Below, in pieces: positions 29,438 through 63,103 of a DNA stretch of 64,000 bases. Under the pieces are notes generated by a model that was given only the letters and a program-made list of their open reading frames with translations, was not told the DNA's origin and did no database searches. The stretch's first letter is position 1. Each line of letters starts with the position of its first letter. Source of the DNA: Shewanella pealeana ATCC 700345 (GTDB lineage: Bacteria; Pseudomonadota; Gammaproteobacteria; Enterobacterales; Shewanellaceae); NCBI RefSeq assembly GCF_000018285.1, contig NC_009901.1, forward strand, positions 557,001 to 621,000, written 5' to 3'. The position numbers and the translations under genes were made by a program.

Positions 29438-29503
29438 TTAACGCTTCGCGACTAATGTTAATTACTAACGCTTCGCGGCTATTGTTAACTTCTAACGCTT
29501 CGC
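29438..29503. repeat. Three copies of a short palindrome with a TTC loop
   Basis: AACGCTTCGCG occurs at about 29440, 29468 and 29495, spaced about 28 bases. Each contains CGC-TTC-GCG. The right-most copy is the coding end of the thioredoxin-like gene; the others lie downstream of its stop, so the gene end appears copied. Confidence 0.9.
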
Positions 29504-30076
29504 GTACTTCGCCGTTAGCTTTTCAAGGTACGGTTGCACTTCTTTGTCGCCCCAATCTAGGTAACCACGTAGGAAGCCCACTAGGTTGCCAGAACCGTCA
29601 AACACATAAGTTGCAGGCACCACATCGGCTGGCATAATTTGGTCGATGGTTTTCTTCGGGTCTAGCCAAGTCTGGTAGTGACCAAGCTCATGGCGCTCTA
29701 AGAAGGCTTGTACCTTGTCACTCTCTTCATCGATAGAGATAGGCACTACGACCAAGTCGTTATTCTTGTTAACTTGACGGATATTCTCCATCTGCGGAAT
29801 TTCTTTGATACATGGCGCACACCAAGTAGCCCATAGGTTGACCAGTACCAATTTGCCTTTATATTGCTTGAGGCTAATTTGCTTGCCTTTGGTATCGGTA
29901 AACATCACTTCAGGCACTGAGCGCGCCGATTGCATCTCGATAAAGCGCGACATAATCAGTGGTTTTTCAATGGCTTTGCCTGTGTTGTACACCTTGGTTG
30001 ATGCAACTTGAGCTTGGGCTGGCATAAGTAGAGATGAGAGAACCAATAAGCCGCTCAGTAAATGTGTTTTATTCAT
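29492..30076 (-). CDS. Thioredoxin-like CcmG/DsbE/ResA-type protein of the sulfite reductase maturation operon
   Basis: A 194-residue periplasmic thioredoxin-fold protein with a cleavable signal (MNKTHLLSGLLVLSSLLMPAQA) and the active site WCAPC (Cys86, Cys89). In CcmG-type proteins this motif keeps apocytochrome heme-site cysteines reduced. The GFLRGYLDWG region is typical of the CcmG/ResA class. Its start overlaps the end of the CcmH-like gene by 8 bases. With CcmF- and CcmH-like partners it forms a dedicated heme-attachment module, like the sirEFG accessory genes described in S. oneidensis. Confidence 0.85.
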   Translation of the reverse strand: MNKTHLLSGLLVLSSLLMPAQAQVASTKVYNTGKAIEKPLIMSRFIEMQSARSVPEVMFTDTKGKQISLKQYKGKLVLVNLWATWCAPCIKEIPQMENIRQVNKNNDLVVVPISIDEESDKVQAFLERHELGHYQTWLDPKKTIDQIMPADVVPATYVFDGSGNLVGFLRGYLDWGDKEVQPYLEKLTAKYAKR

Positions 30077-30515
30077 AGGTATTAGCCTTAATATCTTGAT
30101 GTTTACGTTGTTCACGGATCCAAATCACCGCGAAAGCAATAATGCCAAATAGAAGAAGCAATGGTCCAAACCAAAGCAGGGCGGTAGCGGCCGAAAAGCT
30201 AGGTTGATATCTGATTTTCTCGCCATAGCGTTGTACTAAAAAATCGATGATCTCAGCTTTGGATTCACCCTGATCTAGCATCAAAAATATCTGTCCCTTA
30301 AGCTCGCTGGCGATAGGCGCACCTGAGTCAAACAGATTCTGATTGACCGACATAGGGCAGCGTAGCTCATGGGCGATTTCAAATCCTAAATCGCGGATCT
30401 GGTCTGGGGTGTAATGGATTTTGTCGCTGGCCGCCTGCGCGGAAAGGCTTAGGCACAGCAAGATGGCAAAGGCTGCCAATAAGCGCATTAGCGTCGACGT
30501 GTACGAGTTGCTCAT
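30069..30515 (-). CDS. CcmH/NrfF-like heme-lyase subunit with a single motif cysteine
   Basis: A 148-residue protein with signal peptide (1-29), a three-helix CcmH domain and a C-terminal membrane helix (about 112-135), the NrfF/CcmH layout. The usual motif LRCxxCQNQ is here LRCPMSVNQN: Cys53 is kept, but the second Cys is Ser56. I checked the DNA and TCG encodes that serine. CcmH normally uses two cysteines to take over apocytochrome disulfides, so this protein may act by one cysteine. It overlaps the CcmF-like gene by 4 bases. Confidence 0.86.
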   Translation of the reverse strand: MSNSYTSTLMRLLAAFAILLCLSLSAQAASDKIHYTPDQIRDLGFEIAHELRCPMSVNQNLFDSGAPIASELKGQIFLMLDQGESKAEIIDFLVQRYGEKIRYQPSFSAATALLWFGPLLLLFGIIAFAVIWIREQRKHQDIKANTYE

Positions 30516-32494
30516 GCTAGCTCCTTGGCGCTGTATGTATTTGCGTATTGCGTCGTCGCGACAGATGAATCAACAGCAGTGCGTTGCTGACGCAAGCTAT
30601 AAAGCCCTGACATCGCGGCAATAAAACCACCTAGCATCATCATTAGGCCACCAATCCAAATCCAGCAAGCAAGCGGCTTATGGCTAATACGTACTAGGTA
30701 TTCGGTTTCACTCAGTTGCTGGCCGCTCGATACATACAGATCCCGCACTAAATTACGCATGATGCCCGCTTGAGTCGTCTCCATGGCGTTAGTCTTAAAG
30801 GTTTGTCTTTGCGGGGTGATATAGCCAATAAACTTATCATCCACATCGGTCACGCGAATATTAGCCTGAATCGCGGTGTAGCTGCTTGATTCAACATCGA
30901 CAGTATCTTCATAGACGAAGGTGTAGCCAGCCACGACCTTGCCTTGACCCGGCCCCATTCTGAGTAACTCCTCCGTTTCAAAGTTGGATACGGCTGTAGC
31001 GCCGATAATTGTGACAGCCACACCAAGGTGAGCGATCAACATGGCCGACTTGTTAGCGATAACGGCTAATCCTTGCTGGCGTAGGTTAAACATTAAGTAG
31101 CCAAGAGTTAGTAATATCCAGCTAGCTGAAGTAGCACCCATCCATACCCAAGGGTTGAAACCACCACGGGTTTGTAGTGCAACCAATACGCCAATGCTTG
31201 CCGCTGCGGCGAATAGGCCTGCAAGAAGGTATAAACGATGACTAGATTGCTGACATTTAATCAAAGGTGCGGCGCCCATCAATAGTACGGCAACAAAGGT
31301 CAGTGGCACGAAGATGCTGTTAAAGTAGGGCGCGCCAACCGATAGGGTTCCTAGATTCAATAGTTCGAATAACAGTGGATAGAAGGTACCGAGTAGCACA
31401 GAGATAGCGGCCACGATTAAGACGATGTTGCCGAGCAACATCACGCTATCTCGTGAGACGAGGGCAAAGTCAGATTTAGACTTAATCAAATGAGCCTTTA
31501 AGGCAAACAGGGTTAAGGCGCCACACACAAAAACACCCAATAGGAATAGAATCGACATGCCGCGAGTAGGGTCTGAAGCAAAGGCGTGTACAGACTGCAC
31601 GATTCCAGATCGCACTAAGAAGGTGCCTAATAAGCTCAATGAGAATGCCAGTAAACACAGCAATAGGGTAGTGATCTTAAAACTGCTACGCTGCTGACTC
31701 AGAACAACGCTATGTAATAGCGCGGTTGCCACAAGCCAGGGAATAAACGAGGCGTTTTCCACCGGATCCCAGAACCACCATCCTCCCCAACCAAGTTCGT
31801 TATAAGCCCACCAAGAACCAAAGGCATTGCCGCCAGTTAAAAATACCCAAGCCATAAGTACCCAAGGGCGCAGGTAGCCAGCATGTTGTTGAGTAAACTT
31901 GCCACCAAGTAGCGCTGCAATCGCGGCGGCAAAAGTGACTGTCAGGCCAACATAGCCGAGGAATAGCATGGGTGGATGAAAGATCAAGCCTATGTCTTGT
32001 AAAATCGGGTTAAGGTCGCGCCCCTCGATTGGGAAGTTGGGGAGCAAGCGGGCAAAAGGGTTTGAAGTGAACAGCATAAACAGGTTAAAGCCTGCAATCA
32101 CAAACGCCAGTATGGCGATCATGCGGCCGATAAATAGTGGGTCTTGATAGCGCGACGAGAATACAATCAAGCAGCCCCAAATTGCGATAGACACTACCCA
32201 AAACAGCATCGAGCCTTCATGGCTACCCCAAACCGCAGCCACCTTATATAGGATCGCTAGCTGAGTATTAGAGTGGTTGGCTACATAAGCCACCGAGAAG
32301 TCATCGAGTAAAAACGAAACAAGTAAACATAATATAGAAGCGCTAATGGTCACCGTCATTAATGCGGTTAATGTTTTTACATAACTAAATAAGTAATGGT
32401 TTTTAGTATATGACGCATAGAGCGGAATAAACGCAAGTAACACCGCCGTGACTGTGCTAATGATAAGGAAAATAAGTCCTAGCTCTGGGATCAT
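30512..32494 (-). CDS. CcmF/NrfE-type cytochrome c heme lyase, likely specific for SirA
   Basis: A 660-residue inner-membrane protein with many membrane helices and the WWD heme-handling domain at about residues 228-247 (WWAYNELGWGGWWFWDPVEN). HPPMLFLGYVGLTVTFA near 175 and FLVRSGIVQSVHAFA near 300 are further family landmarks. The C-terminal periplasmic part includes FVYEDTVDVESSSYTAIQANIRV. It begins a three-gene minus-strand operon divergent from sirA. In Wolinella a dedicated lyase attaches the CX15CH heme of the SirA homologue MccA, so this protein probably serves the CX15CH site. Confidence 0.9.
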   Translation of the reverse strand: MIPELGLIFLIISTVTAVLLAFIPLYASYTKNHYLFSYVKTLTALMTVTISASILCLLVSFLLDDFSVAYVANHSNTQLAILYKVAAVWGSHEGSMLFWVVSIAIWGCLIVFSSRYQDPLFIGRMIAILAFVIAGFNLFMLFTSNPFARLLPNFPIEGRDLNPILQDIGLIFHPPMLFLGYVGLTVTFAAAIAALLGGKFTQQHAGYLRPWVLMAWVFLTGGNAFGSWWAYNELGWGGWWFWDPVENASFIPWLVATALLHSVVLSQQRSSFKITTLLLCLLAFSLSLLGTFLVRSGIVQSVHAFASDPTRGMSILFLLGVFVCGALTLFALKAHLIKSKSDFALVSRDSVMLLGNIVLIVAAISVLLGTFYPLLFELLNLGTLSVGAPYFNSIFVPLTFVAVLLMGAAPLIKCQQSSHRLYLLAGLFAAAASIGVLVALQTRGGFNPWVWMGATSASWILLTLGYLMFNLRQQGLAVIANKSAMLIAHLGVAVTIIGATAVSNFETEELLRMGPGQGKVVAGYTFVYEDTVDVESSSYTAIQANIRVTDVDDKFIGYITPQRQTFKTNAMETTQAGIMRNLVRDLYVSSGQQLSETEYLVRISHKPLACWIWIGGLMMMLGGFIAAMSGLYSLRQQRTAVDSSVATTQYANTYSAKELA

Positions 32495-33050
32495 CTTATT
32501 AACTTCTCTATTCGTTTACGTTTATAAGTTCAAAAAGCCTGTATGAAAACTATTCTTTATAATTTAGCTTTTTACTATTGTTGATATTGAACTTAGCTAC
32601 TTATTTAAATTGTTTAGACTACTGTTTATTAACCAGCGGTCAATTTAGATGCTTTAGCAACGACTGTTCTACGTTATTGAACTCAAGGGTAGGGTATATT
32701 AGCTAAGTGTTTTGTGACCTCTCTATCCTTTATCGAACCCGGTATCCTTTCTGATATTTTTTCACGTCTAAATGGATTTTTTTTAGGTCTTTTTAGATAT
32801 CAAAAAATGCTATTACAAGTGAAAAACGCACTTGGTATTCGTGTGCAAGTTGTTGTATTTAAATTGTTTTCAGCGATTTTTTACTATCTGTGATTTTCAA
32901 GCTCTCATTTCTTGCGGTAGCGCGTATTTTTTGCAAAAAAGATATGGAAAATAGCTGCAACTCGATTGTTTAGTTGTTCAGCTTAACAAGAGAGTGCCTA
33001 AGTTGAATGATGATGAAAATACTATAACTAGGTTATAACTAGGAGTGATG
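32495..33050. promoter_or_regulatory. Divergent control region between heme-lyase operon and sirA
   Basis: About 550 AT-rich bases. A block at 32943-32973 (TGGAAAATAGC, then TTGTTTAG 8-9 bases on) recurs upstream of the second sirA at 59519-59549. At 32790-32803, TTTTT-AGAT-ATCAA matches an FNR/EtrA-like palindrome in 8 of 10 positions, a weak match. The sirA ribosome site AGGAG is at 33041-33045. Confidence 0.55.
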
Positions 33051-35087
33051 ATGAAAAGTTGGAAACTTAAAGCAGTCGCGAGTGTACTGTTTTGTTTCGG
33101 CGCAATAGGTAACGCTAGTGCTGCTGGTGATAAGTACAATAGCATCCCAGAAATGGGTGCATCTGCTAAGAATGCAATTGCAAACTATGCTGGTACAGAA
33201 GAAAGAACAGGTGTTAAATCGCTACACGATTATATTGTTCAAGAAGATGAGTTGTTTGATTTCTTATTTCAAAACCATCCAATGTTCAAATATCAAGAAG
33301 AAGGTAACTTAATTGGTGATTACCATATTAGTGACCGTGGTGAAGAATATTTAGATACTGGCGGAAGCCAGGCATACAGTAAGCGTGTAGGTCGTCCAAG
33401 TGCAGTTCAGTACCGTCTAGGTGCTAAATCAACGTTGGATTTCCCAAACAATTTCGTAGGTCCAGAGAAGTGTGGTGAGTGTCACGCGACTCAGTTTGAG
33501 AAATGGCAACGTTCGCGCCACGCAAACGTAGTGCGTTTCCCAAGCGAAATTACCGATAAAGAAGTACCAAATGGCGATTTGAATGCAAAGCTATACGGTA
33601 GTGATGCATCAATGCTTCCAGACGGTATTCGTGCTAACGACGTGTACGCCATTATTGGTACACCACGTACTAAGTACGGTTTCCTAGATTCATGGTTGGT
33701 TCGTGGTACTTACCACGTTCGTGACGGTTTGTTATCTGAAGGTACAGGCAAGATGGTTGCCGGTGCTAACCAGTTCTCTCGTGGTTGGGCTGAATGGCTA
33801 ACTCCAGAGATGGCGAAGAAGATTAACAAAGCAATTCCAGAGTTCCCAGTAACGCTAGAAGAGTTTGGCGCTACAGGTTCTCACCAGTGGGGTATGACTT
33901 CATACGGTGCTAAGTACGAGAAAGAGATGCTTTTCCAACCTGGTAGCTCTTACTGTGAAATGTGCCACACGTATAAGTTTGACTTCCAAAACAAGCAAGA
34001 GTTCTTCGATGCACTTGGCGACGCTAAGAAGCTACAAGAGCACACTATCTCTAAGGGTATCTCTTGTGAAGAGTGTCATGGCGCGGGCGGTCACTTAGAT
34101 GGCGGTACTGGCGGCATGCAGTCTAACTGTGAACGTTGTCACCAGCGTTTCTTCTTCGTTGATGCACTAGCTGATACAGAGCAAGCGCAAGAGAAGATGG
34201 AATACGCATTTGGCGTATACATGAAGTCTGCTTGTCCATCTTGTGGTACTGAAGGTTCACAAATGTTTGCTTCTTCTCATTACGAGAAAGGTATGCGTTG
34301 TACAACTTGTCACGATCCACACGAAGTGACTGATGGCGACTTCCTATCAGGTTTCTCTAAGCCAATGCTGAAGAAAGACTGTGTTGATTGTCACGAAGCG
34401 CAAGCGATGATCGCTGACAACACAGACACACACAGCAACCAAACGTGTCAAAGCTGTCACATGCCTAACATGGGTAGCTGTGAAAACTTCGCTGCGATTC
34501 AGTTCCCTGATAGCGCAGGTTTCGACGCGGTACGTCGTTCACACATGTGGAAGATTGATATCGACCCAGAGCGTAAGACATTGAACCCTCCTGAAGGTCA
34601 ACCACGTGATTCAGGCGTGAAAGGCTGGACTGTGGCTAAGAACGAAGAAGGTCATAACTACTTAGACTTAATGTGGACTTGTGCTCGTACAGCGATTTCT
34701 GACAAAGACGTAGTGGATAACAAGGGTTGTCACAGCCCATTCCAGTCTGAGCTAGAAACTGGCCTACATTACGACGACCAGCTAGAGATCTACGGCGAAG
34801 TGATGAAGATGCAAACGCCTGTTAAAGACGTTTACGCCAAAGTTGAACAAGCTCTTGAGCGCATCGATACGCTACTAGAAGTGACTAAGCTGTCTACTGC
34901 AGACAAGACTGAAGTGCTAATGCTAGCTGAGAAAGCGCAAGAAACTATCGACCTAATCAAGAAAGATGGTTCATGGGGTGTTCATGGCTTCCGTTACAGC
35001 CAGAAGCGTCTAGACGCAGCCCTAACTTATGTTACCCAAGCTCAGAACATTCTAGACGGTGTTGGTTACAGCGCTAAAAAGATGTAA
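33051..35087 (+). CDS. sirA: Octaheme sulfite reductase SirA (MccA family), copy 1
   Basis: A 678-residue periplasmic protein with a Sec signal (about 1-26, ending ASA). Heme motifs: CXXCH at about residues 141, 302, 339, 360, 417, 444 and 466, plus an unusual CX15CH at 544-561, giving eight hemes as in MccA. Non-heme cysteines occur in CPSC (about 395-398) and SCENF (477); since MccA holds copper through cysteines at a heme, these are candidate ligands. It reduces sulfite to sulfide. AGGAG at 33041 favours the ATG at 33051 over 33048. A 60-base gap with a strong hairpin separates it from the rhodanese gene. Confidence 0.95.
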
Positions 35088-37263: not shown

Positions 37264-37971
37264 GTGAGTGAAAATCTAGAGAGACGGAGGTTCCTTAAAT
37301 GTCTAGGAGCCAGCTCTTTGATATTGGCACCGCTAGGGTGTAGCTCGGTCAAAGACAAGGAAGATACCAACAAGCCGCACTATGTAATGGTTTTCGACCA
37401 AAACAAATGTGTTGGTTGCGGTGAGTGTAAGGATGCTTGTAATAAAGCTAACCACTTACCAGAAGGTAAATCTCGCCTATTAATGGAAGAGCAATCAAGC
37501 GCCGTCGAGGGTCAACCTTGTCCACACTGTGGTAAAACCGGTGACTGTGGTTGTCAGCGTAAGTTTGTGCGTGTTTCATGTCAGCAATGTAAGAATGCTC
37601 CTTGCGTAACAGTTTGCCCAACAGGCGCTGCACATCGTGATGAGAAGACCGGCATTGTGACTATGGATGCGGCGAAATGTGCTGGTTGTAAGTACTGTAT
37701 CGGTGCTTGCCCATATGACGCACGTTTCATCAATAAAGAAACTGACGTCGCCGATAACTGTGACTTCTGCCTAAACAGCAAACTTGCCATCGGCGAGTTA
37801 CCTGCTTGTGTGCAGCAGTGCCGTTACGACGCGCTGATCTTTGGTGATGCAAATGATCCAACTTCATACGTGAGTAAGCTATTGGCAGTGAAGGACTCGG
37901 TACGTATTAAGCCGGGCTTCGGTACTGAGCCTAGCCTGCGTTACATCCCTATTGTGAAGCTAGGAGTATAG
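37264..37971 (+). CDS. sirC: SirC, NrfC-like four-cluster Fe-S protein, copy 1
   Basis: A 235-residue protein with a Tat-type signal (ERRRFLKCLGASSLI). Four cysteine groups hold 4Fe-4S clusters: CVGCGECKDAC (from 49), CQQCKNAPCVTVC, CAGCKYCIGAC and CDFC with PACVQQC. An extra CPHCGKTGDCGC insertion lies near residue 85. With SirD it should pass electrons from the quinol pool to SirA. The start is a GTG after GGAGG. It ends 2 bases before sirD. Confidence 0.93.
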   Translation: MSENLERRRFLKCLGASSLILAPLGCSSVKDKEDTNKPHYVMVFDQNKCVGCGECKDACNKANHLPEGKSRLLMEEQSSAVEGQPCPHCGKTGDCGCQRKFVRVSCQQCKNAPCVTVCPTGAAHRDEKTGIVTMDAAKCAGCKYCIGACPYDARFINKETDVADNCDFCLNSKLAIGELPACVQQCRYDALIFGDANDPTSYVSKLLAVKDSVRIKPGFGTEPSLRYIPIVKLGV

Positions 37972-37973
37972 TC

Positions 37974-38921
37974 ATGGACGGTAATATTGAATTTACAATG
38001 GGCCTGTCACAAGGCATCGCTTGGCCTTGGCCGATTGCGGTTTACCTGTTCTTTGCTGGTATCTCTGGTGGTGCATTAGCGGTTGCGCTGTTCATTCGTT
38101 TCTACAAAAAACAAACTGAAAACACCCCTTTCTTAAAGGCGGCGTCTTTAGTTTCTTTAGTGACGATTGCACTGGGTATGTTGTGTCTAGTTATCGACTT
38201 GACTAACCCGCTGTTCTTCTGGCGAATCTTGGTGTTCTACAACCTAAACTCTGTAATGTCTGTGGGTGTTCTTGTCCTAAATGCATACATTCCTTTGGTA
38301 GCGTTGGTGACACTGTTCGCGTTTGAAGAAGAGATTAAGGCATGTAAGCCACTGCATTTCTTGTTGCCTGTTATCGACAAGTTACGCGTTATTCGTGCGC
38401 CATCTGAAAAGCTAGTACTGGTACTTGCTATGTCAGTGTGTGCCTATACCGGCTTCTTGATCTCAGCCTTGATCCGTTTCCCAATTATCAATACCTCAGT
38501 ATTGCCTGCGCTATTTGTTGCGTCAGGTCTTTCTGCCGGTGCTGCCGCTGCAAAAATGGTTGCAGTATCAGTATTTAAAGAAGACCTACACAGCAAAGAC
38601 ATGCACACATTACATGCCATTGAGTGGCCAGTAATGGCTGCCGAAGCTCTGTTCTTATTCATGATCATCATGTCTCTAGCAACAGGTAATGCAGGCGCAC
38701 AAAGTGCATTCGCAGCTTTCCATAGCGGCGTATGGGCAAATGTGTTCTGGATTGGTGTAGTGGGTACCGGTTTTGTTGGTCCACTACTGCTTAACTTCGC
38801 CACAGGTAAAGCCTTCAGCCATTCGGCTAAAGCGTTTTTCATGTCAGGCATGTGTGCGGTTGTTGGCATGATGTGCCTGCGTTTATTCATCATTTACGCA
38901 GGCCAGTTAAATGCCATCTAG
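37974..38921 (+). CDS. sirD: SirD, NrfD-like quinol dehydrogenase membrane subunit
   Basis: A 315-residue inner-membrane protein with about eight to nine helices, beginning with the NrfD hallmark WPWPIAVYLFFAGISGGALAVALFIRF and followed by FFWRILVFYNLNSVMSVGVLVLNAYIP. It oxidises menaquinol and feeds SirC. The ATG follows the sirC stop by 2 bases, so the two are coupled. Confidence 0.93.
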   Translation: MDGNIEFTMGLSQGIAWPWPIAVYLFFAGISGGALAVALFIRFYKKQTENTPFLKAASLVSLVTIALGMLCLVIDLTNPLFFWRILVFYNLNSVMSVGVLVLNAYIPLVALVTLFAFEEEIKACKPLHFLLPVIDKLRVIRAPSEKLVLVLAMSVCAYTGFLISALIRFPIINTSVLPALFVASGLSAGAAAAKMVAVSVFKEDLHSKDMHTLHAIEWPVMAAEALFLFMIIMSLATGNAGAQSAFAAFHSGVWANVFWIGVVGTGFVGPLLLNFATGKAFSHSAKAFFMSGMCAVVGMMCLRLFIIYAGQLNAI

Positions 38922-39271
38922 TGAGGTTTTTTGCAGTAGCGCTAACGCCCCTACGTTAGCTCTACTGTCGATTAATCTGACGTTAAATAAGTAGAGAGTC
39001 AGCGGCTCCTCACTCCCCAGACCGGTTGAGCATTAGCTTAGCGCGGGAGTGAGTGACCAAAGGCTCAATACAAATAATGTTAGCCGCAATGAGCTGAGGA
39101 AGTCGAAGCATAAGGTCTTTGAGCGCTTTCCCTATGGGCGCTTAGTGATGTATTCGCCTTTGCTCCTAAGCCATTAATTAGGCTAACTGTGAGTAAGCTA
39201 GCCCTTCGAATGTCGTCCCTGCAAGGCCGTCGAAGGGCTAGCCTGAAAGCAAGATGGATCCTGGAGATAAA
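38922..39271 (+). other. Hairpin-rich spacer between sirD and nosL
   Basis: Three perfect or near-perfect inverted repeats occur in 330 bases: 38935-38966 (GCTAACG with CGTTAGC, extended by AGTAG/CTACT), 39009-39053 (CTCACTCCC with GGGAGTGAG) and 39197-39242 (13-bp arms around 20 bases). None has a T run. They could control read-through into or stability of the nos part. Confidence 0.75.
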
Positions 39272-39760
39272 ATGAAAAAGCTAATCTGTTTGTTATTCCT
39301 AATACCTTTGCTCAGCGCTTGCGGCGACAGTAGCGCCGATACCAAGCAATACACGGCCGAGGCCATTAATGAGCATGACCGTTGCCACTTGTGCGGCATG
39401 ATGATCACCAAGTATCCAGGCCCTAAAGGCCAAGTTCATCTTAAAGGGCAAACTGTCGTACCTAAATTCTGCTCGACTCGCGATATGTTTAACTTCGCGC
39501 TGCAAGCAGAAAACAAGCGTCAGATTGAAGCGTTATTTGTCCACGATGTTGCAGCGACAGACTGGGAGCAGCCAAAAGACGCAGCCTTCACCGAGGCAAC
39601 TCAAGCATGGTACGTCTACGGCACCATTAAAAAGGCCGTAATGGGACCTGCGGTGGCCAGTTTTAAGAACCAAGAAGATGCAGTTAAGTTTGCCCAAGAG
39701 TTTGGCGGCGCCGTTCTACCTTATGAAAAGATTGATATCGCCCTGTTAGCTGGTGAGTAA
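39272..39760 (+). CDS. nosL: NosL-like copper chaperone lipoprotein
   Basis: A 162-residue lipoprotein (lipobox LLSAC, Cys17) with the NosL signature CHLCGMMITKYPGPKGQV (Cys38, Cys41). NosL binds Cu(I) and delivers it to nitrous oxide reductase; no nosZ is present here, so the target is probably the copper of SirA. The ATG at 39272 has GGAG upstream. Downstream genes complete a NosDFY exporter. Confidence 0.93.
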   Translation: MKKLICLLFLIPLLSACGDSSADTKQYTAEAINEHDRCHLCGMMITKYPGPKGQVHLKGQTVVPKFCSTRDMFNFALQAENKRQIEALFVHDVAATDWEQPKDAAFTEATQAWYVYGTIKKAVMGPAVASFKNQEDAVKFAQEFGGAVLPYEKIDIALLAGE

Positions 39761-39829
39761 TGGCTCATTGCCATTACGAATAAATTAAGTCCGGTAAGTG
39801 ATTGCCTGTGATGATGACTTACCAATCTA

Positions 39830-41170
39830 ATGAATCTATTTATGAAAAATGCCACCTCTGCTCAAGTGCTACCACTATTATGCAAGGCAGCAAAACAAGT
39901 CTGCCTTAGCGCTTGTCTCTCTCTACTCTTAAGCCCTGTTAGTCTAGCGGCTACTTATTCGGTGGCGAGCGCTGCAAGCCTCAAGCAACAGCTGCTAGAC
40001 GCCATCGCCGGTGACACCATAGTGTTAAGCGCTGGCGAATATAGTGGTCATTTTGAGATCCATCAGGCCATCACCTTAACAGGTGAGAAGGGCGCAATTA
40101 TTGATGCAGAGGGCCGTGGTAGTGCTATCACGATCTTTAGCTCAGATGTGACCATCTCAAATTTACAAATTCAGCACTGGGGCGGCGATCTTTATGAGCT
40201 CGACTCAGGCATCTTACTGCAAGACAAAGCTAACCGAGTACGTATCGAGTCCAGCCAGTTTAAAGGTGACGGCTTTGGGATCTACTCTGAAAATGCCAGC
40301 CATATTACAGTGGCGAACAATATTATCTCAGGTAACCCCGCACTTTATAAGCTCGACAGAGGCGACGGTGTATACCTCAAAGGGGTCGATGCCCCTGTGG
40401 TGCATGGTAACCAAATCTCCCATGTGAGAGACGGCGTTTATCTCGAAACCAGCACCAACAGCCTAGTGTTCGATAACCGCTTCCACTCTGCACAATACGG
40501 TATTCACTACATGTACACCAAGCATGACGAGGCCTATGGTAATCGGGTGGATAGCGTCGATGGTGGCTACGCCATCATGAGCTCTGAGTCTGTTAATCTG
40601 CATCAAAATCAGGCATCTAACACTATCGACTTTGGCGTGCTGCTCAACATCAGTAACCACTGCATCGTCAGTAATAACCGCTTATCTCAGGCCCATAACC
40701 CCCAAGGTACCGCCGAGCTGGGTAACGAAGGTAAAGGCATCTTTATTTACGGTGCTCGCGACAATGAAGTGAGCCATAACTTGTTCTCAACCAGTGATAT
40801 CGGCATCTACATGGCCATGGGCGGCGAGAAGAATAAGGTTTACGGCAATCAGTTTGTTAATAACAAGACTCAGGTGAAATACGTCGGCGACTCGCTGCTT
40901 GAGTGGAGCCATCAAGGACGAGGCAATTACTGGAGTGGCCATATGGGCTGGGACAGTAATCACGACGGTATTGCCGATAAGGCATACAGACCGAACGATC
41001 ATCTCGATAAACTTTTCTGGCTCTATCCTGAGGCGCGCTTCTTAATGAATAGCCCTGTGGTGGCACTGCTGCGCTGGGTGCAAGGTCAGTTTGAGTTTGG
41101 CCCGGCAACGGGGATTGTCGATAGCTTTCCTCTACTGGGTATGAGCAATGTCGATAGGGGGCCATTTTGA
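39830..41170 (+). CDS. nosD: NosD-like periplasmic copper-handling beta-helix protein
   Basis: A 446-residue protein with a long signal region (cleavage near residue 40, before TYSV) and a right-handed parallel beta helix made of repeated NNIISG, HGNQI, VFDNRF, NEVSHNLF-type coils (about 100-360). NosD works with the NosFY transporter in making copper sites. No good ribosome site precedes 39830; an ATG 12 bases on is possible. It overlaps nosF by 4 bases. Confidence 0.92.
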   Translation: MNLFMKNATSAQVLPLLCKAAKQVCLSACLSLLLSPVSLAATYSVASAASLKQQLLDAIAGDTIVLSAGEYSGHFEIHQAITLTGEKGAIIDAEGRGSAITIFSSDVTISNLQIQHWGGDLYELDSGILLQDKANRVRIESSQFKGDGFGIYSENASHITVANNIISGNPALYKLDRGDGVYLKGVDAPVVHGNQISHVRDGVYLETSTNSLVFDNRFHSAQYGIHYMYTKHDEAYGNRVDSVDGGYAIMSSESVNLHQNQASNTIDFGVLLNISNHCIVSNNRLSQAHNPQGTAELGNEGKGIFIYGARDNEVSHNLFSTSDIGIYMAMGGEKNKVYGNQFVNNKTQVKYVGDSLLEWSHQGRGNYWSGHMGWDSNHDGIADKAYRPNDHLDKLFWLYPEARFLMNSPVVALLRWVQGQFEFGPATGIVDSFPLLGMSNVDRGPF

Positions 41171-42147
41171 TGAAAGTGGCGATGAACGCTGCAACCCAAG
41201 TGCACGGGGTTAATCATAAAAGCAGGGCTGAGAATACAATGTCACAACTCGCAATACAGCTAACCGATGTTAGCCTTAGATATAACGATTTTATCGCACT
41301 AGATAGCGTCAGCTTTGAGGTCGAAGCAGGCCATACGCTGGCGCTACTTGGTCACAACGGTGCGGGTAAGTCTAGCCTGATTAAAATCATTCTTGGGCTG
41401 ATCCCACCGACCTCAGGAACCGTGACTATTCTGGGCCAAAGCGCCCAGGAGAGTCAGGCTCATAACTGTGTACGCCTCGGTTACCTGCCTGAGGATGCCA
41501 GCTTCTATGACAAGTTAACAGGCTGTGAGGTACTCAGTTATTTTGCCGCGCTAAAAGGTATCAGCCAGCGCCGAGTCGAGACGTTGATCGAAGAGTTTGG
41601 CCTCGAATACGCCCAGCATCGCCAGCTAAAAACCTACTCAAAAGGCATGAAACAACGTCTCGGAGTCGCGCAGGCGATTTTGGCAGAGCCTAAAATTTTG
41701 CTGCTCGATGAGCCGACCGTCGGACTCGATCCACAGGCATCGCAGTTCCTATATGGCAAGATTAATCAACTTAAACAGGCAGGCTGCGCCGTGGTGATCT
41801 CGACTCACGAGCTATCTCTGGTGGAGTCTCATCTGGATCGGGCGTTGATTATGGCCAAAGGTAAGCGGGTCGCATTAGGCACCAGCAGTGAACTGAGTCG
41901 CGGCAGTACATTAAAAACCAGTATCAAGTTTACTGAGCTCAGCGAAAGAGTTAAGTCTAACGCCTTTCTCCAGCAATTTTACTGCGATGATTTACTGCAA
42001 TTTAGTGCCGCTCAAAAGCCAGAAATAGTGCAGCACCTCGTTTCTCAGTGCCAAATTTTTGATTTCGAAATCAAAGAGCCAAGGCTCGAAGACATTTATC
42101 ACGATTTAATGGGGCAGGCCTTAGGCTCCCCTGTAGGGCAGTCATAG
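41167..42147 (+). CDS. nosF: NosF-like ABC transporter ATPase
   Basis: A 326-residue ATPase with Walker A GHNGAGKSS (near 62-70), signature YSKGMKQR, Walker B ILLLDEP and the switch STHELSLVE. The first 24 residues are extra to most NosF proteins; MSQLAIQLTDVSLRY is the usual start, so the true start may be the later Met. NosF powers the NosY permease in copper-site assembly. Confidence 0.93.
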   Translation: MMKVAMNAATQVHGVNHKSRAENTMSQLAIQLTDVSLRYNDFIALDSVSFEVEAGHTLALLGHNGAGKSSLIKIILGLIPPTSGTVTILGQSAQESQAHNCVRLGYLPEDASFYDKLTGCEVLSYFAALKGISQRRVETLIEEFGLEYAQHRQLKTYSKGMKQRLGVAQAILAEPKILLLDEPTVGLDPQASQFLYGKINQLKQAGCAVVISTHELSLVESHLDRALIMAKGKRVALGTSSELSRGSTLKTSIKFTELSERVKSNAFLQQFYCDDLLQFSAAQKPEIVQHLVSQCQIFDFEIKEPRLEDIYHDLMGQALGSPVGQS

Positions 42148-42148
42148 A

Positions 42149-42994
42149 ATGTATATGAATAGACTTAAATCTCCGATTTTGATTATTGCCTATAAAGAGA
42201 TCTGCGACAGCTCACGCAATCGGTGGTTAACCTTTATGGGCAGTATATTTCTACTGCTTTCCTTAAGTGTCAGCTTCGCCGGTAGTGCAGTGACGGGCAG
42301 CCTATATTTGCCCGAGCTTAATAGCCTGATGAGTAGTCTTGCGACCATCTCTGTATTTATCATTCCGTTAGCGGCCATCTTGCTCTGTTACGATAGCTTC
42401 GTGGGTGAAGAGGAAGCGGGCACCTTGTTGTTATTACTGTCTTATCCATTGACGCGGTCGCAGATTATTTTTGGTAAGTTGCTTGGTCACATCACAGTGA
42501 TGCTAGTGGCAACCGGTTTTGCATTTGGACTGACAGCAGCCCTATTGTTGCTTGTTGGAGAGCAGTACCATAGCGGCGAATTAGTGGCGGCGTTTGCACA
42601 GTTTGTGCTGAGCAGTAATTTGCTAGCATTGACCTTTATTTTGTTGAGTTACATTGTCAGCCTTAAATGCACCGAAAAAGCCAAGGCTATCGGCTGTTTA
42701 CTGCTGCTGTGGTTTCTGTTTGTACTGATCTATGACTTGCTACTGTTAACTTTATTAGTGTCAGACTTCGCTTTTGTTAATCAGTTCCTGATTAACATTC
42801 TCATCGCCATGAGCCCGACTGATCTCTACCGCGCGATTAATCTCGTCGCGATTGAGGGAGAGGGGGCGAGTGGTAGTCTGGCTATGATAGCGACCACAGA
42901 TTGGGGACTGCCGGGAATGTACGGATTATTTATGTTGTGGATCGGCTCCTTGACGCTGATCTCGCATCGTATATTTAAGCGTAAACCGCTGTAA
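42149..42994 (+). CDS. nosY: NosY-like ABC transporter permease
   Basis: A 281-residue protein with six hydrophobic segments (about residues 28-50, 60-85, 105-130, 145-170, 180-205, 250-272) and the NosY/ABC2 loop SFVGEEEAGTLLLLLSYPLTRSQIIFGKLLG. It forms the membrane part with NosF. A terminator lies about 100 bases downstream. Confidence 0.93.
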   Translation: MYMNRLKSPILIIAYKEICDSSRNRWLTFMGSIFLLLSLSVSFAGSAVTGSLYLPELNSLMSSLATISVFIIPLAAILLCYDSFVGEEEAGTLLLLLSYPLTRSQIIFGKLLGHITVMLVATGFAFGLTAALLLLVGEQYHSGELVAAFAQFVLSSNLLALTFILLSYIVSLKCTEKAKAIGCLLLLWFLFVLIYDLLLLTLLVSDFAFVNQFLINILIAMSPTDLYRAINLVAIEGEGASGSLAMIATTDWGLPGMYGLFMLWIGSLTLISHRIFKRKPL

Positions 42995-43089
42995 GGGGGC
43001 GATTAAAATCAGCTTGATAAGTTGGAAAATAGATACCTATAAATAGGCAATATTATTAATGGCTAAATTTGTGAACACTGACGATGATT

Positions 43090-43112
43090 GGCCGCTCAAT
43101 AGCGGCCGTTTT
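43090..43112 (+). terminator. Terminator after nosY
   Basis: GGCCGCT pairs with AGCGGCC around CAAT, followed by GTTTT. It probably ends the sir-nos operon. Confidence 0.75.
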
Positions 43113-43201: not shown

Positions 43202-44485
43202 GTGTTAAAAATCACTCCTTATTTAGAGTTAGATACAGAAGCTAACCAGTTAGTCGATCATGTGAGTGGTAAAAAGGTTAGTCTGACCTTCTCTGAGTCT
43301 GCAGTACTACATCGCCTTTTGCTTTCTGCAAACCCCGTTTGTTCAAAAGAAGAGTTACTCAGCGCGGGTTGGCCAGACCGCGTGGTTGCCGTGACATCTT
43401 TAACCCAATGTATAAGTACCCTGCGTAAAAAGCTTGATGGCTATCGTGAGGTGCAGCTAAAGACGATTGCTCGTCGCGGTTATCAGCTACATATTTCGAC
43501 TCAATCCCATGTGAAAATGTTGGCAGTAAATGACGCCGAATCGATGCGCGCCGCGATTGTCGATGTGTCCTTGTTAGTCAAGATTTCAGGCATTGTTATT
43601 GCTTTACTACTACTGATACTTGCTTGGTATTTCAGTGATTACCATAAGATTAAGCAAAACCTATCCCGCTGGAGTGCCGACGAGCAATTTGAGCTGAAGG
43701 TTGGCGGCCTAAAGGGCGATACCCAGCTGTTGTATAAAGATAATGCCCCCCATTTACATCCGTTTATGTGGGAAAAACACCTTGAGCCAGACGATAACTT
43801 TATGACCTGTCATAAAGGTTTTAATGCATTCGCAGCCACCGATGGTGACAATTATTCAATGGCAATATGCCCAGGTACCGATGCTAAGCAATGTGCTGGT
43901 AAAGGCTTAATTAACATTACTTCGGTTGATTCAGAGCCAGCGTCTCTCAATATGCCTGAATTTGTTGAGCTGTCGACCGCGATGGAGCAACGCATCCGTT
44001 ACAATCGAGTGATGCTACCTGAAAGTACCGATACTAGTGGTGCTTTCTTAGAGCATAACTATCAAGCAGATGTGTATTTTCCGGTTAAAGGTGAGCTGCT
44101 TATTCGCGCCGATATCAATATGTCGCTGATCTATGACTCAGCAGATACTGGCGAGTTTTACTCATCGACCTGCATTACCGACCAAGACTGTTTGACTACG
44201 CCGATTAAGTACAAGGTACGTGGTAAGTTTAAGCAGTATTCAGGCAAGATAGATGAGCTAAATGTGGATGTGTTCCAGGTTAAAGTCGAACAAAAAGACT
44301 TAATTAAACCGGAGACATTGAATGACTCAGCGGTGCGTTTTTATCGCGATTTACGTAAGCGTGATATTAAAGATGAAGAGTTGTATTTTATTCGAGTTCA
44401 CCAGGATCATAAGACTGCGGTTTGGACCATTCCGCTGTTTGGCCAAGTTACGGCTTGGTACCATTATGAGAGATTCGATATTTAG
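43202..44485 (+). CDS. CadC/ToxR-like membrane-bound transcriptional regulator
   Basis: A 427-residue protein with an N-terminal OmpR-type winged helix (about 25-97; LTQCISTLRKKLDGYREVQLKTIARRGYQL), one membrane helix (about 122-145) and a long periplasmic domain (150-427) holding five cysteines (TCHK, ICPG, QCAG, TCIT, DCLT). Such proteins sense periplasmic signals and bind DNA directly. Directly after the sir-nos genes, it is a candidate sensor of sulfite, sulfide or copper, which is inference. The start is GTG, with AGAGG upstream. Confidence 0.87.
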   Translation: MLKITPYLELDTEANQLVDHVSGKKVSLTFSESAVLHRLLLSANPVCSKEELLSAGWPDRVVAVTSLTQCISTLRKKLDGYREVQLKTIARRGYQLHISTQSHVKMLAVNDAESMRAAIVDVSLLVKISGIVIALLLLILAWYFSDYHKIKQNLSRWSADEQFELKVGGLKGDTQLLYKDNAPHLHPFMWEKHLEPDDNFMTCHKGFNAFAATDGDNYSMAICPGTDAKQCAGKGLINITSVDSEPASLNMPEFVELSTAMEQRIRYNRVMLPESTDTSGAFLEHNYQADVYFPVKGELLIRADINMSLIYDSADTGEFYSSTCITDQDCLTTPIKYKVRGKFKQYSGKIDELNVDVFQVKVEQKDLIKPETLNDSAVRFYRDLRKRDIKDEELYFIRVHQDHKTAVWTIPLFGQVTAWYHYERFDI

Positions 44486-58927: not shown

Positions 58928-59644
58928 TCTCACTTATTAAGAAAGGCTGAGAAGGCTATGGGACCAAAATTTGGCCCCATAGCTTGGGTATTGACGCTGA
59001 CTGTACCGTTATCTTCTATCCGCTACTGTTAGGCTATGACGACATAAGGGAACAAGGAAAGGTCGTTTTTAGTCTAGTCTAACCTTATCTTTCATTGCAC
59101 TCTGGTACTGTCTCAATACTCATTTCTTCTAGGCTATATCTAGCCAAACCATCCCTAGGAGCAGTCCCTTAAACACCGTTAAAAGGTCTTTAGCCGCCTA
59201 TTGGTCATTAGGCCAGCTCGTTATTTACTATTTTGTTGTAACGTATCGGCTTACACCTAGCTCCTTATGTTTGTAAATGAGCAAGCCCTTATCTCTGCTG
59301 AGTTTGCGCGATTACGCTAACTGCTCTCGTTTGGTTTTTCATCGTTCTTTTGTAACTTTTTTGCGATTTAAAAAACGTAAAGTTGTGATTTTTATATCTA
59401 AAAAGATCTCTTGATAACTATTTAACTCGTTGTTTTCTTATGTAAATATCGTTTTTATATCTAATTGCTTCTAATGGATTTTTAACTGTGCTGTAGCGCA
59501 GGTTTTTACTGTTTTTTATGTGGAAAATAGCCCTTGCTCAGTTGTTTAGCTCAATCGGTGAACGGTTAGTTTCAAAAATGTGGGCTTAAAAAAAAAGCCT
59601 GCAATAAACAGTAAAAATAAAATAATGATAAGTAGGAGTGAATG
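58928..59644. promoter_or_regulatory. Control region upstream of sirA copy 2
   Basis: A long hairpin at 58955-58983 (GCTATGGG with CCCATAGC, continued by CCAAA/TTTGG) follows the GST gene without a T run. The block at 59519-59549 (TGGAAAATAGC, then TTGTTTAG) matches 32943-32973 upstream of sirA copy 1. TTGAT-AACT-ATTTA at 59411-59424 is a weak FNR-like match (8 of 10). AGGAG is at 59634-59638. Confidence 0.55.
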
Positions 59645-61675
59645 ATGAGACGGTGGAAACACAAGGTAGCATTAAGCGTGCTGTTTTGTTTTGGTGCCAT
59701 TGCCAATGCGAACGCTGCTGGAAAATACGACAGTATCCCTCAGATGGGTAAAACTGCTAAAGAGTCGATAGCTAATTATCAAGGAACGCAACAGATAAAC
59801 GGCGTGAAAACGCTGCAAGACTATATTGTTCAAGAAGATGAGTTATTTGATTACCTATTCGAAAATCACCCAATGTTTAAATATCAACAATCGGGTAACT
59901 TGATTGGTGATTACCATATCAGTGACCGTGGTGAAGAGTATTTAGATACGGGCCATAGCCCTGCATATAGTAAAAGTGTTGGTAAGCCACGAGCGGTACA
60001 ATATCGTTTAGGTGCCAAATCAATTCTAGATTATCCAAACAATTTCGTTGGTCCTGAGAAGTGTGCCGAATGTCATGCGACTCAATACGAGAAATGGCAG
60101 CGCTCGCGTCATGCTAAAACAATTCGTTTCCCTGGCGAACACCCAGAAGTGGATAACGATATTGAAAAAACCATGTACAACACCAAAGATACCTCAATCT
60201 TACCCGACGGTATTACCCCAGACATGATCTATGCAACTGTTGGTACGCCTCGTACTAAATACGGTTTCATCGATGCATGGCTCGTGCGTGGTACTTACCA
60301 TATCAGAGACGGTTTATTACGCGACGGCACTGGTAAAATGGTTGCTGGTGCAAACCAGTTCTCTCGTGGTTGGGCTGAATGGCTAACCCCTGAGATGTCT
60401 AAGAAAATTAACGATGTTATCCCTGATTTCCCAATTACCCTTGAAGGTTTTGGTGGTTCAGGTTCGCACCAGCAAGGCATGAGCTCTTATGGTGCTAAGT
60501 ATGAAAAAGAGATGTTGTTCCAACCAGCAAGTTCTTACTGTGAAGTTTGTCATACGTTCAAGTTTGACTTCCAAAGCAAGCAAGAGTTCTTCGATGCCTT
60601 AGGCGATCCTAAGAAGCTTCAAGAGCACACTATCTCTCGTGGTATCGCTTGTGAAGAGTGTCATGGCGCAGGTGGTCACTTAGATGGTGGTACTGGCGGC
60701 ATGCAGTCTAACTGTGAACGTTGTCACCAGCGTTTCCAGTATGACCCAACGTTAATGGATACTCCTGAAGCACAAGAGAAGGGTGAATACGCCTTTGGTG
60801 TGAAGATGAAGTCTCTATGTCCATCATGTGGTACTGAAGGTTCACAGATGTATAACTCTGTGCACTACGAGAAGGGCATGCGTTGTACTACATGTCACGA
60901 TCCACACGAAGTGACGGATGGTTCTTGGCAGTCTGGTTTCACTACACCAAAGCTGAAGAAAGACTGTAAAGATTGTCACGAAGCACAAACGTTGATTGCT
61001 GAAAATTCAGATACTCACAACCAGCAAACATGTCAAAGCTGTCACATGCCTAACATGGGTAGCTGTGAAAACTTCAAGGCATTGCAGTTCCCTGACCAAG
61101 CAGGCTTCGACGCAGTACGTAAGTCTCATATGTGGAAGATTGAAGTCGACCCTACTCTGAAGACGTTGAACCCACCTGAAGGTGAGTCTCGTGCCGGTGG
61201 CCCAAGCGGTGTTAAAGGTTGGACAGTGGCTAAGAACGAAGAAGGTCGCAACTACTTAGACTTGATGTGGTCTTGTGCTCGTACCTCTATCTCTGACCAC
61301 GATGTGGTTGAGAACAAAGGTTGTCACAGCCAGTTCCAGTCTGAACTAGAAAAAGGCCTACATTACGAAGATCAGTTAGAGATCTACGGTGAAGTTCAGA
61401 AGATGCAAACGCCTGTTAAGGAAGTCTTCACAAAGGTTGAGCAAGCACTTGTACGCATCGACCAGCTATTAGAAGTGACTAAGTTGTCTACTGAAGACAA
61501 GACTCAAGTACTAATGCTAGCTGAGAAAGCGCAAGAGACTGTTGATCTAATCAAGAAAGATGGTTCTTGGGGGGTTCATGGCTTCCGTTACAGCCAGAAG
61601 CGTCTAGATGCTGCACTAACGTATGTTACGCAAGCGCAAAACATTCTAGATGGAACAGGTTACGCAGCTAAGTAA
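59645..61675 (+). CDS. sirA: Octaheme sulfite reductase SirA (MccA family), copy 2
   Basis: A 676-residue paralogue of the first SirA, with a Sec signal ending ANAA. The same eight heme sites are kept in the same order: CAECH, CEVCH, CEECH, CERCH, CTTCH, CKDCH, CQSCH and a CX15CH (CARTSISDH to GCH). The non-heme CPSC and SCENF cysteines are also kept. Differences cluster in surface loops, for example an [13 protein letters not shown] segment and FQYDPTLM. The start at 59645 is 6 bases after AGGAG. No heme-lyase genes lie upstream of this copy, so it may use those at 29492-32494. Confidence 0.95.
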
Positions 61676-61691
61676 GCCGCCTAACTTAATC

Positions 61692-61728
61692 GCCTCGGCC
61701 GCCATTGCAGTGCAATGACTGCCGAGGC
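61692..61728 (+). other. Intercistronic stem-loop after sirA copy 2
   Basis: GCCTCGGC pairs with GCCGAGGC and encloses CATTGCA-G-TGCAATG, a second stem. It lies in the same place as the hairpin after sirA copy 1 but with unrelated sequence; no T run follows. Confidence 0.83.
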
Positions 61729-61741
61729 AATAGAGAGAAAA

Positions 61742-62173
61742 ATGATGAAAAAAGCACTTGGTCAAATCTTAGTAACTCTTTCCTTACTCGCAAGCTCTGC
61801 CAGCTGTTTGGCTGGTAGTGGTTCAGATATGGGACCTGCTCATCGTTATGAGCACCAACTTAACACTATCAGCATGATGGAAGCTGGGACTTTAGTGGGT
61901 AAGGAAGGCGTCTACTTCTTTGATGTGAATACGCTGGAGCTATGGGCTGAAGGTTACATTCCAGGTGCGATTTACTTCAACGTTAAAGATTGGAAGAAGT
62001 TACTGCCGGCGAACAAAGATGCGCTGATGGTGTTCTATTGCGCCAACCGTTTGTGTAACGCCAGTGAAGTCGCGGCTCATTCGGTGATGAAAATGGGTTA
62101 TACCAACGTCAAACAAATGCCTGATGGTATTTACGGATGGCGCTTGGCAAACCGTGTAACGGAAAGACCATAA
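61742..62173 (+). CDS. Periplasmic rhodanese-like protein of the sir operon, copy 2
   Basis: About 143 residues from the ATG at 61742 (GAGAG four bases before; the next ATG at 61745 is also possible). Signal peptide (about 1-25), then the same single rhodanese domain as copy 1, with YCANRLCNASEVAA as active loop and MPDGIYGWRLANRVTERP at the end. The paralogue keeps both loop cysteines. Confidence 0.88.
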   Translation: MMKKALGQILVTLSLLASSASCLAGSGSDMGPAHRYEHQLNTISMMEAGTLVGKEGVYFFDVNTLELWAEGYIPGAIYFNVKDWKKLLPANKDALMVFYCANRLCNASEVAAHSVMKMGYTNVKQMPDGIYGWRLANRVTERP

Positions 62174-62232
62174 CAGCTGGATGTTGGGTATAAAAATTAC
62201 GTAAAACTAATTTATTCAAAGAGATAACCATT

Positions 62233-63018
62233 ATGAAAATATTTACAAAAACTACCCTAGCTGTTGTGACAAGTTTCACTCTATTTATGTCAGCCAACTC
62301 AATGGCCGCAACCGAGCTGACTTCTGATGTGCAAAAAGAGTCTTACAGTATCGGTGCTTCTTTAGGTAAATACATCTCGGGCCAAATTTATAGCCAAACT
62401 GAGTTGGGTGCTGAAGTCGATGTAGACCTTGTCATTGAAGGTGTGGTGGATGCTCTTAAAAATAACTCACAGTTTTCAGATGAAGAAATTCTCACCTATT
62501 TAAATCAGCGTGCAGAGCAGTTAAATACAGCTCGCGAAGCTGCAGAGGCCAAAATTGCCTTAGCAAACCTTACAGCGGGTAATAAGTATTTAGCAGAAAA
62601 CGAAAAGAAAGATGGCGTTATGGTCACCGAGTCTGGTCTGCAGTATGAAGTGATTAGCGAAGGGAAAGGCCGTAAGCCAAACCCACAAGATGTGGTAACT
62701 GTGCACTATAAAGGTTTCCTTATCGACGGCACAGAGTTTGATGACTCACACAAGCGCAATGAGCCAAATCGCTTTGCATTAATGAGCGTGATTGAAGGCT
62801 GGCAAGAAGGCATTCCGTTGATGAAAGAAGGTTCAACTTACAAGTTTGCCATTCCTGCAGCGCTGGCCTACGGCGAAAAGCAAGTCGGTATTATTCCGCC
62901 AAGCTCTACTCTAGTTTTTGAAGTTGAGCTAGTTAAAGTTGAAGCTCCTGGCCAAAACTCACACGGCATGGGCCTTAGTGGTATGGGCATGGGCGGTATG
63001 ATGGGCGGCGGTCACTAA
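62233..63018 (+). CDS. FKBP-type peptidyl-prolyl isomerase with Met/Gly tail, copy 2
   Basis: A 261-residue paralogue of the copy-1 isomerase: signal peptide ending SMAA, an FkpA/Mip-like N-terminal domain (about 28-120), an FKBP domain (VTVHYKGFLIDGTEFDDSHKR, VIEGWQEGI, PAALAYGEK), and the same tail HGMGLSGMGMGGMMGG ending GGH. The tail is almost unchanged between the copies while other parts differ. Confidence 0.9.
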   Translation: MKIFTKTTLAVVTSFTLFMSANSMAATELTSDVQKESYSIGASLGKYISGQIYSQTELGAEVDVDLVIEGVVDALKNNSQFSDEEILTYLNQRAEQLNTAREAAEAKIALANLTAGNKYLAENEKKDGVMVTESGLQYEVISEGKGRKPNPQDVVTVHYKGFLIDGTEFDDSHKRNEPNRFALMSVIEGWQEGIPLMKEGSTYKFAIPAALAYGEKQVGIIPPSSTLVFEVELVKVEAPGQNSHGMGLSGMGMGGMMGGGH

Positions 63019-63103
63019 TCGCTGCTGCTAGCAAATTAATTTAGCTAGTGTTTATTAAGTTTTAAGTTGTTGTTTTAGTAAGTTTCGTTTGTAGAGAGTC
63101 ACT

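Follow-up and report, generated by a model that had tools for sequence, protein, structure and literature searches.

Two of the described systems closest to the locus considered here concern copper enzymes. The first is the NosDFY-NosL machine of nitrous oxide reductase (NosZ), represented by the structures of PDB 7o0y and the 7osf series, which we take to be from Pseudomonas stutzeri. NosZ is the sole client of NosDFY known to us, and because NosZ holds both copper and sulfide, it is hard to settle with that enzyme which of the two is the cargo of NosDFY. The second is MccA of Wolinella succinogenes (4rkm), whose copper site contains one copper and is not known to contain sulfide. A 64,000-nucleotide stretch of the Shewanella pealeana ATCC 700345 genome (NC_009901.1, positions 557,001 to 621,000; hereafter the window, in whose coordinates all positions are given) carries nosL, nosD, nosF and nosY after sirD, in an operon headed by sirA, which is predicted to encode an MccA-type octaheme sulfite reductase. 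Comparative sequence analysis makes it very probable that the four nos genes encode a NosLDFY machine for copper assembly that has switched clients and is dedicated to SirA. Judged on the same grounds, the association is real, conserved and dedicated, and would give a known machine a new client. If that second client holds one copper and, like MccA, no sulfide, it would separate copper from sulfide as the cargo. The genes that carry the argument are the following.

33045..35087, (+) strand: sirA, predicted MccA-type octaheme sulfite reductase and proposed client, with copper-ligand candidates C400 and C479
39272..39760, (+) strand: nosL, predicted copper(I)-chaperone lipoprotein (PF05573, with solved NosL relatives), CxM motif C47-G-M49 and conserved M130
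39830..41170, (+) strand: nosD, periplasmic beta-helix protein of NosDFY (TIGR04247, 7o0y), placed by its tree in the sir-type clade
41167..42147, (+) strand: nosF, ABC ATPase (PF00005) of the sir-type clade; its start is unsure, an ATG at 41239 being also possible
42149..42994, (+) strand: nosY, NosDFY membrane permease of ABC-2 type (PF12679, 7o0y chain D), sir-type clade

All four Nos proteins span the full length of their families, judged from profiles and, for NosL, NosD and NosY, also from solved structures. NosL scores 150 bits against PF05573 (cut-off 24), NosD 383 bits against TIGR04247 (cut-off 300) with a match to PF05048 as well, and NosY 92 bits against PF12679 (cut-off 27). A phmmer comparison with solved structures pairs NosD with 7o0y chain A (E 2.8e-92) and NosY with 7o0y chain D (E 8.9e-54); NosL matches both 7og7 (E 6.7e-35) and 7osf (E 1.3e-34). 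With NosD above its curated cut-off and NosF and NosY adjacent, the components of a NosDFY complex are present. The start of nosL is the ATG at 39272, with GGAG ahead of it, and nosY stops at 42994; NosL residue numbers count from a longer open reading frame that starts at 39254. A preliminary description of this DNA had placed the four genes after sirD at 39272-42994, and families, structure matches and coordinates all bear this out. The locus shares with the NosZ machine its four families, the CxM of NosL, and residues H226, M228 and M250 of NosD. It differs in having no NosZ, in a gene order L-D-F-Y rather than D-F-Y-L, in separate clades for NosD, NosF and NosY, and in D179 and Q222 of NosD.

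The preliminary description had found no nosZ in the window and reasoned that a nosZ elsewhere, if dependent on these genes, would speak against copper supply to SirA. Searches with TIGR04246 and TIGR04244 found no NosZ across the single-contig 5.17 Mb genome. By these two models, the absence noted for the window extends to the genome as a whole, in which a NosZ maturation system would have no NosZ client. Model TIGR04244 performs well in this genus, where it detects NosZ above cut-off in 12 of 117 Shewanella genomes, with weak partial matches in 7 more. PF18764, also tried as a probe for NosZ, matched nowhere; it is uninformative and was not counted.

The 117 Shewanella genomes are a sample drawn evenly from a larger group. 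SirA was found in 67 of them (E up to 1e-30), NosD above cut-off in 72, and NosL in 73. The number of NosL copies equals the number of SirA plus NosZ copies in 73/73 carriers, and NosD copies do the same in 67/73; none of the 117 genomes has NosD above cut-off or NosL without SirA or NosZ. Among the 105 genomes without NosZ, 60 have both SirA and NosD, one has SirA without NosD, none has NosD without SirA, and 44 have neither (Fisher p 5.6e-29, relatedness ignored). NosL occurs in 61/61 of these genomes with SirA and in 0/44 without it. The sole NosD miss, G060, has sirA frameshifted into two frames, sirR also in two frames, truncated matches to sirG and FKBP, and no match to the rhodanese; sirD-nosL-sirR is left, and nosDFY is gone.

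These counts bear on the possibility that NosLDFY, acting in general copper salvage, keeps all cuproenzymes (cytochrome oxidase, for example) supplied with the metal when SirA fills the periplasm with sulfide. Sulfide is a strong binder of copper in general chemistry, and genes that sit in the sir operon should be on during sulfide making. Yet neither NosD above cut-off nor NosL occurs in the 44 genomes that lack SirA and NosZ, Shewanella with two sirA genes have two NosL, or three if NosZ is present, and six genomes hold NosZ-type and sir-type NosD together, which leaves general salvage very improbable. In those six (G019, G033, G070, G094, G099 and G113), one NosD lies beside NosZ and another beside SirA. 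That two separate NosD are kept suggests that sharing of NosDFY does not cross the client boundary.

Sharing between copies of the same client does occur. Two sirA genes are present in 23 genomes, accompanied by two sir NosD in 18 and by one in 5. In four of these five, those that were readable (G063, G092, G094, G110), one operon has nosL and no nosDFY. The copy counts therefore indicate that in Shewanella NosL goes with each SirA copy, and that NosDFY can serve two.

A contig scan for SirA loci extended the comparison beyond the genus. It returned 74 loci, only from Shewanella, Ferrimonas, one record titled Marinobacter, and Sutterellaceae/Burkholderiales. Sixty-three of the 74 have nosL-nosD-nosF-nosY, in this order, on the downstream side of sirA, a count that includes L122 (nosY weak), L130 (nosL split) and L152 (nosD split). 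Seven of the other 11 are cut by the end of the contig or locus (L106, L129, L139, L140, L156, L157, L160); L103 and L161 have nosL-only operons, L145 has nosD with the rest elsewhere, and L158 has none of the four. Several clades have lost sirCD and retained nosLDFY. Twenty SirA genomes lie outside Shewanella; NosD is above cut-off in 19 and NosL present in 18, the NosL misses being G136 and G135; in G135 the contig starts immediately before nosD. With TIGR04246 as the sole model used, NosZ was found in one of the 20, with a second NosD beside that NosZ, and four more show weak partial NosZ matches below cut-off. Across 398 Pseudomonadota genomes, SirA was found in 3, NosD in 64 and NosZ in 59 (53 above cut-off), with just one further genus gained for SirA (G375). 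NosD without NosZ occurs in five of the 398: three carry SirA (G000, G026, G375), one is 65% complete (G309), and one has an orphan nosDFYL (G500). A search for SirA in plasmids gave no match.

Individual loci show departures of their own. Duodenibacillus massiliensis (G123) has nosL-nosL-nosF-nosY at L296 9484-12207, about 375 kb from its sir operon (L145), which keeps only a divergent nosD. Three Shewanella sir operons (L086, L087, L122) have a very divergent NosD/NosY pair; in L122 the NosD end branch is 1.9 and NosY scores 72 bits. A Ferrimonas-like sir operon, L138, occurs in a record titled Marinobacter nauticus, either a mislabelled genome or a case of transfer. The orphan nosDFYL of G500 (L256 7050-10724), of NosZ type and with no NosZ or SirA in its genome, lies beside a glutaminase gene (PF04960) and a gene for a DcaP-like porin (PF19577).

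A different division of labor would have NosDFY move sulfur species, by export or supply of sulfide or persulfide with the rhodanese as partner, and leave copper to NosL alone. Sulfide supply to the CuZ cluster of NosZ has been put forward as a NosDFY function (PMC6530538), a rhodanese gene lies within the same operon, and the Shewanella pattern, in which every sirA has NosL whereas two sirA copies can share NosDFY, suits such a scheme. We consider it decidedly unlikely all the same. To our knowledge no sulfide ligand belongs to the MccA site, which the title of Hermann 2015, as cited, calls heme-copper. SirA is tracked by NosD as well as by NosL, with NosF and NosY beside NosD in the 63 loci described above, and one sir-type NosD is still kept in the five genomes that have a single copy for two sirA. 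A client with an MccA-type site lacking sulfide would favor copper as the NosDFY cargo, or would at least mean that sulfide supply is not the whole job.

Trees bear on the history of the system. The NosD tree was built from 79 of 115 rows, near copies and short rows having been dropped, and rows for NosF, NosY and NosL were thinned likewise; the NosD tree carries a long-branch warning for L122, L145 and the clade-II rows. After removal of near copies, 48 of the 80 sir-type NosD rows collected were left, and these lie together on one side of a branch supported at 100/100. Their sister group consists of 12 rows from the same order, 11 of them NosZ-linked (Shewanella included) and one the G500 orphan. 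The sir NosD clade is nested within proteobacterial NosZ-type NosD, on a stem of 1.15 changes per column. Both orphan NosD fall in NosZ-type clades, and none in the sir clade. In quick trees, sir-type NosF forms one clade (100*) and sir-type NosY one clade (99*). NosD, NosF and NosY of sir operons accordingly make up a separate sir clade rather than grouping with the NosZ-linked proteins. A sir NosD clade inside the NosZ-type tree points to a machine that changed client once. The simplest history would be a single recruitment from a gammaproteobacterial nos cluster, after which the genes would have spread as part of the sir operon into Ferrimonas and Sutterellaceae, or into ancestors of these.

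It is extremely improbable that nosLDFY is a functionless leftover of a lost nos operon. One real orphan nosDFYL does exist, in G500 (L256), but it groups with the NosZ-type clade and not with the sir clade. The sir-type genes, by contrast, have mostly open frames, form distinct NosD, NosF and NosY clades over Shewanella, Ferrimonas and Sutterellaceae, and persist where sirCD has been lost. The proposal of the preliminary description, that nosLDFY serve SirA, is thus supported by presence, copy number, neighborhood and tree.

Several observations weigh against a NosLDFY machine dedicated to SirA. The Fisher p-values overstate independence, because the genomes are related. The NosL tree gives no clean split of the two types (2 changes). 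A metagenome-assembled genome of Parasutterella (L158/G136) has an intact sir operon and both ligand cysteines, and NosD and NosL were not found in it; this may be a true exception or a missing contig. Ferrimonas-type tandems (L140/G119, L141/G120, L257/G375) have two sirA per one nosL, and this shared nosL makes the match of NosL to SirA a rule for Shewanella only. Some Sutterellaceae also have lone extra NosL genes away from sir and nos genes. Three of these, in Sutterella genomes (L300, L301, L302), have no recognized nos or sir gene in the surrounding 10-14 kb.

SirA is homologous to MccA over residues 3-670 (E 2.1e-231). Its heme sites are seven CXXCH motifs plus C546-X15-C562-H563 (CX15CH), the latter invariant in relatives; this CX15CH site and both aligned copper-ligand cysteines are common to SirA and MccA. 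The ligand cysteines of MccA we take to be C399 and C495, numbers that match 4rkm chain positions 411 and 507 minus a 12-residue offset. SirA C400 and C479 align with these two and occur in 88/88 SirA rows that have letters there, two partial rows having gaps. C397 of SirA is conserved as well, but MccA has a non-cysteine there. The conserved non-heme cysteines that had been suggested as candidate copper ligands can now be identified as C400 and C479, aligned with the MccA ligands and invariant. On the side of the machine, sir-type NosL has CxM, a motif named in PMC6530538, in 84/84 rows and a second methionine, M(G), in 85/85 rows with letters there; NosZ-type NosL has Asp in place of the CxM Cys in 3/25 rows. 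NosD R177, R200, H226, M228 and M250 are kept in both the NosZ and sir types. Two fixed differences separate the types, N to D179 and R to Q222 from NosZ to sir (26 clade-I NosZ-type versus 78 sir-type rows). These conserved and switched residues provide leads for the copper path and for client choice.

The following order of events would fit these features. Heme attachment would come first, carried out by Ccm and SirEFG, which would form a distinct branch of this maturation pathway. NosL, a periplasmic lipoprotein, would capture copper(I), binding it tightly, and pass it to NosD of the NosD-NosFY complex. ATP use on the cytoplasmic side would then drive one copper(I) into place between C400 and C479, next to the heme of the SirA active site. 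We infer that copper is the cargo, that it moves in this direction and order, and that SirA holds it as MccA does. A tight-binding copper chaperone makes sense in this setting because SirA makes sulfide exactly where the copper goes; attomolar copper affinity has been reported for P. denitrificans NosL (PMC6530538).

Just upstream of nosL lies a further candidate element.

39197..39242, (+) strand: hairpin with conserved apical CCCTGCAAGG, candidate cis-acting RNA element

The hairpin in the window is a 13-bp perfect inverted repeat around CGTCCCTGCAAGG, and Rfam gave no match in the sirD-nosL gap up to E 0.1. The core has a single occurrence in the 64-kb window and is absent from a 400-kb sample of this genome. 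Of the 84 sir nosL leaders examined, 48 carry it ahead of nosL, some operons being counted twice under two locus ids; the split, made by reading of the misses, is 48/64 in Shewanella and 0/20 elsewhere. It is present also where sirG, not sirD, precedes nosL. The stems fall into 10 sequence groups, with pairing mostly kept. In an arm-swap test, a stem score of 7 was reached by 33 of 41 distinct elements, versus 147 of 1392 dissimilar-arm chimeras and 93 of 2000 shuffles. A hairpin model was built from one homogeneous group, 13 of 43 elements. It has 96.4% paired cells, a value that 0/500 shuffles reached, while slid versions attain at most 48.5%. Three pairs are changed on both sides, a number reached by 21/500 shuffles, and further pair types are matched by 105/500; since these double-change counts are modest, more weight is placed on the arm-swap test. 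Invariance of the core in the hairpin alignment (A2) is by construction, because elements were chosen by the core.

Run on 92 sources (E up to 0.5), the model makes 35 matches, each of them in a sir nosL leader; in 44 background sources it makes one weak match (L270, 23 bits). It misses the hairpin of the window itself at E up to 0.5, so the case for that hairpin rests on its perfect 13-bp repeat and the shared core. RNAalifold on a plain MAFFT alignment recovers only a 3-bp apical stem, because stem registers differ between groups. A T run follows the hairpin in the Shewanella sp. ANA-3 and S. profunda group, where a partial terminator or attenuator is therefore possible. Our best guess is that the hairpin acts in cis, so that nosLDFY output can differ from that of sirA-D. 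In a broader and more tentative scheme, to which we give rather less than even credence, NosDFY would be neither specific to nitrous oxide reduction nor a sulfide supplier, but a machine of general use that inserts copper(I) at the expense of ATP and has a branch for each kind of client; the sir branch would have switched to a mononuclear heme-copper site, and the hairpin RNA before nosL would tune the copper arm apart from sirA.

The remaining features of the operon and its surroundings are these.

29492..32494, (-) strand: sirE (CcmF-like heme lyase; PF16327/PF01578), sirF (CcmH-like; PF03918) and sirH (thioredoxin-like; PF00578), divergent from sirA, position kept in relatives (PMC6976685)
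35148..35576, (+) strand: rhodanese (PF00581), named sirB in S. oneidensis (PMC5955497)
35614..36417, (+) strand: FKBP-type peptidyl-prolyl isomerase (PF00254), named sirI (PMC5955497)
36449..37186, (+) strand: sirG, NrfG/CcmI-like TPR protein (NF007692, below cut-off; TPR)
37264..37971, (+) strand: sirC, NrfC-like iron-sulfur protein (TIGR03149 best, below cut-off; PF13247)
37974..38921, (+) strand: sirD, NrfD-like membrane protein (PF03916)
43089..43108, (+) strand: terminator-like hairpin after nosY
43202..44485, (+) strand: sirR, ToxR/CadC-type regulator (PF00486), position kept in relatives; role in S. oneidensis described in PMC6976685

The order is sirA-rhodanese-FKBP-sirG-sirC-sirD-nosL-nosD-nosF-nosY, followed by the terminator-like hairpin and sirR. 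Intergenic gaps are 332 bp for sirD-nosL (to the open reading frame start at 39254), 69 for nosL-nosD, -4 for nosD-nosF, 1 for nosF-nosY and 207 for nosY-sirR. A weaker terminator-like hairpin lies inside the end of sirD, at 38865; over both strands, 7 terminator-like sites were found versus 3.9 expected by chance. SirEFG resembles a dedicated heme lyase of the NrfEFG type in being a client-specific maturation arm in the sir cluster, one that attaches heme and not copper (PMC6976685). Among SirA relatives at least 94% identical, all that are named are Shewanella.

The same operon order is known in Shewanella oneidensis MR-1, where sirAIGCDJKLM has been named as an operon (PMC6976685); the words nos and copper are absent from the main text of that source. 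SO0485 (nosL) and SO0488 (nosY), which follow sirD by locus number, are treated as copper genes and grouped with sulfite respiration in PMC5955497, and rise with sirA in the S. oneidensis transcriptome. This joint rise counts for SirA as the client. In another Shewanella genome, nosDFYL (SHEWT2_04146-04149) without nosZ was called curious (PMC9415397); sirA is SHEWT2_02032 and SHEWT2_04142, and the available part of that report draws no link. The nos genes of MR-1 have been tied to N2O (PMC2886065). The arrangement is thus already in print for S. oneidensis; for a link among SirA, copper and Nos, or a role in SirA loading, no proposal was found among the papers listed in searches of the open literature, subscription papers lying outside the scope of the search. 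SirA as client would explain the nos genes without nosZ in Shewanella that these last two reports saw as curious or linked to N2O. It also advises caution, in that nosD, nosF, nosY or nosL alone is not evidence of N2O reduction, Sutterellaceae included.

A second sir operon (L071) starts 26.6 kb downstream of the first, has its own nosLDFY, and crosses the end of the window.

59642..61675, (+) strand: second sirA, 80% identical to the first; the operon continues past the window
61715..63817, (+) strand: genes of this operon for the rhodanese, FKBP and SirG

Its order is sirA-rhodanese-FKBP-sirG-sirC-sirD-nosL-nosD-nosF-nosY-sirR. Identities between the two operons are 79-80% for SirA, 89% for SirC, 78% for SirD, 67% for NosL, 52% for NosD, 59% for NosF and 57% for NosY. 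NosD of the second operon has diverged far beyond SirA (52% versus 80%). Elsewhere in the window, 50120-51490 encodes a BspA-type leucine-rich repeat protein (PF13306, 345 bits) with many short repeats.

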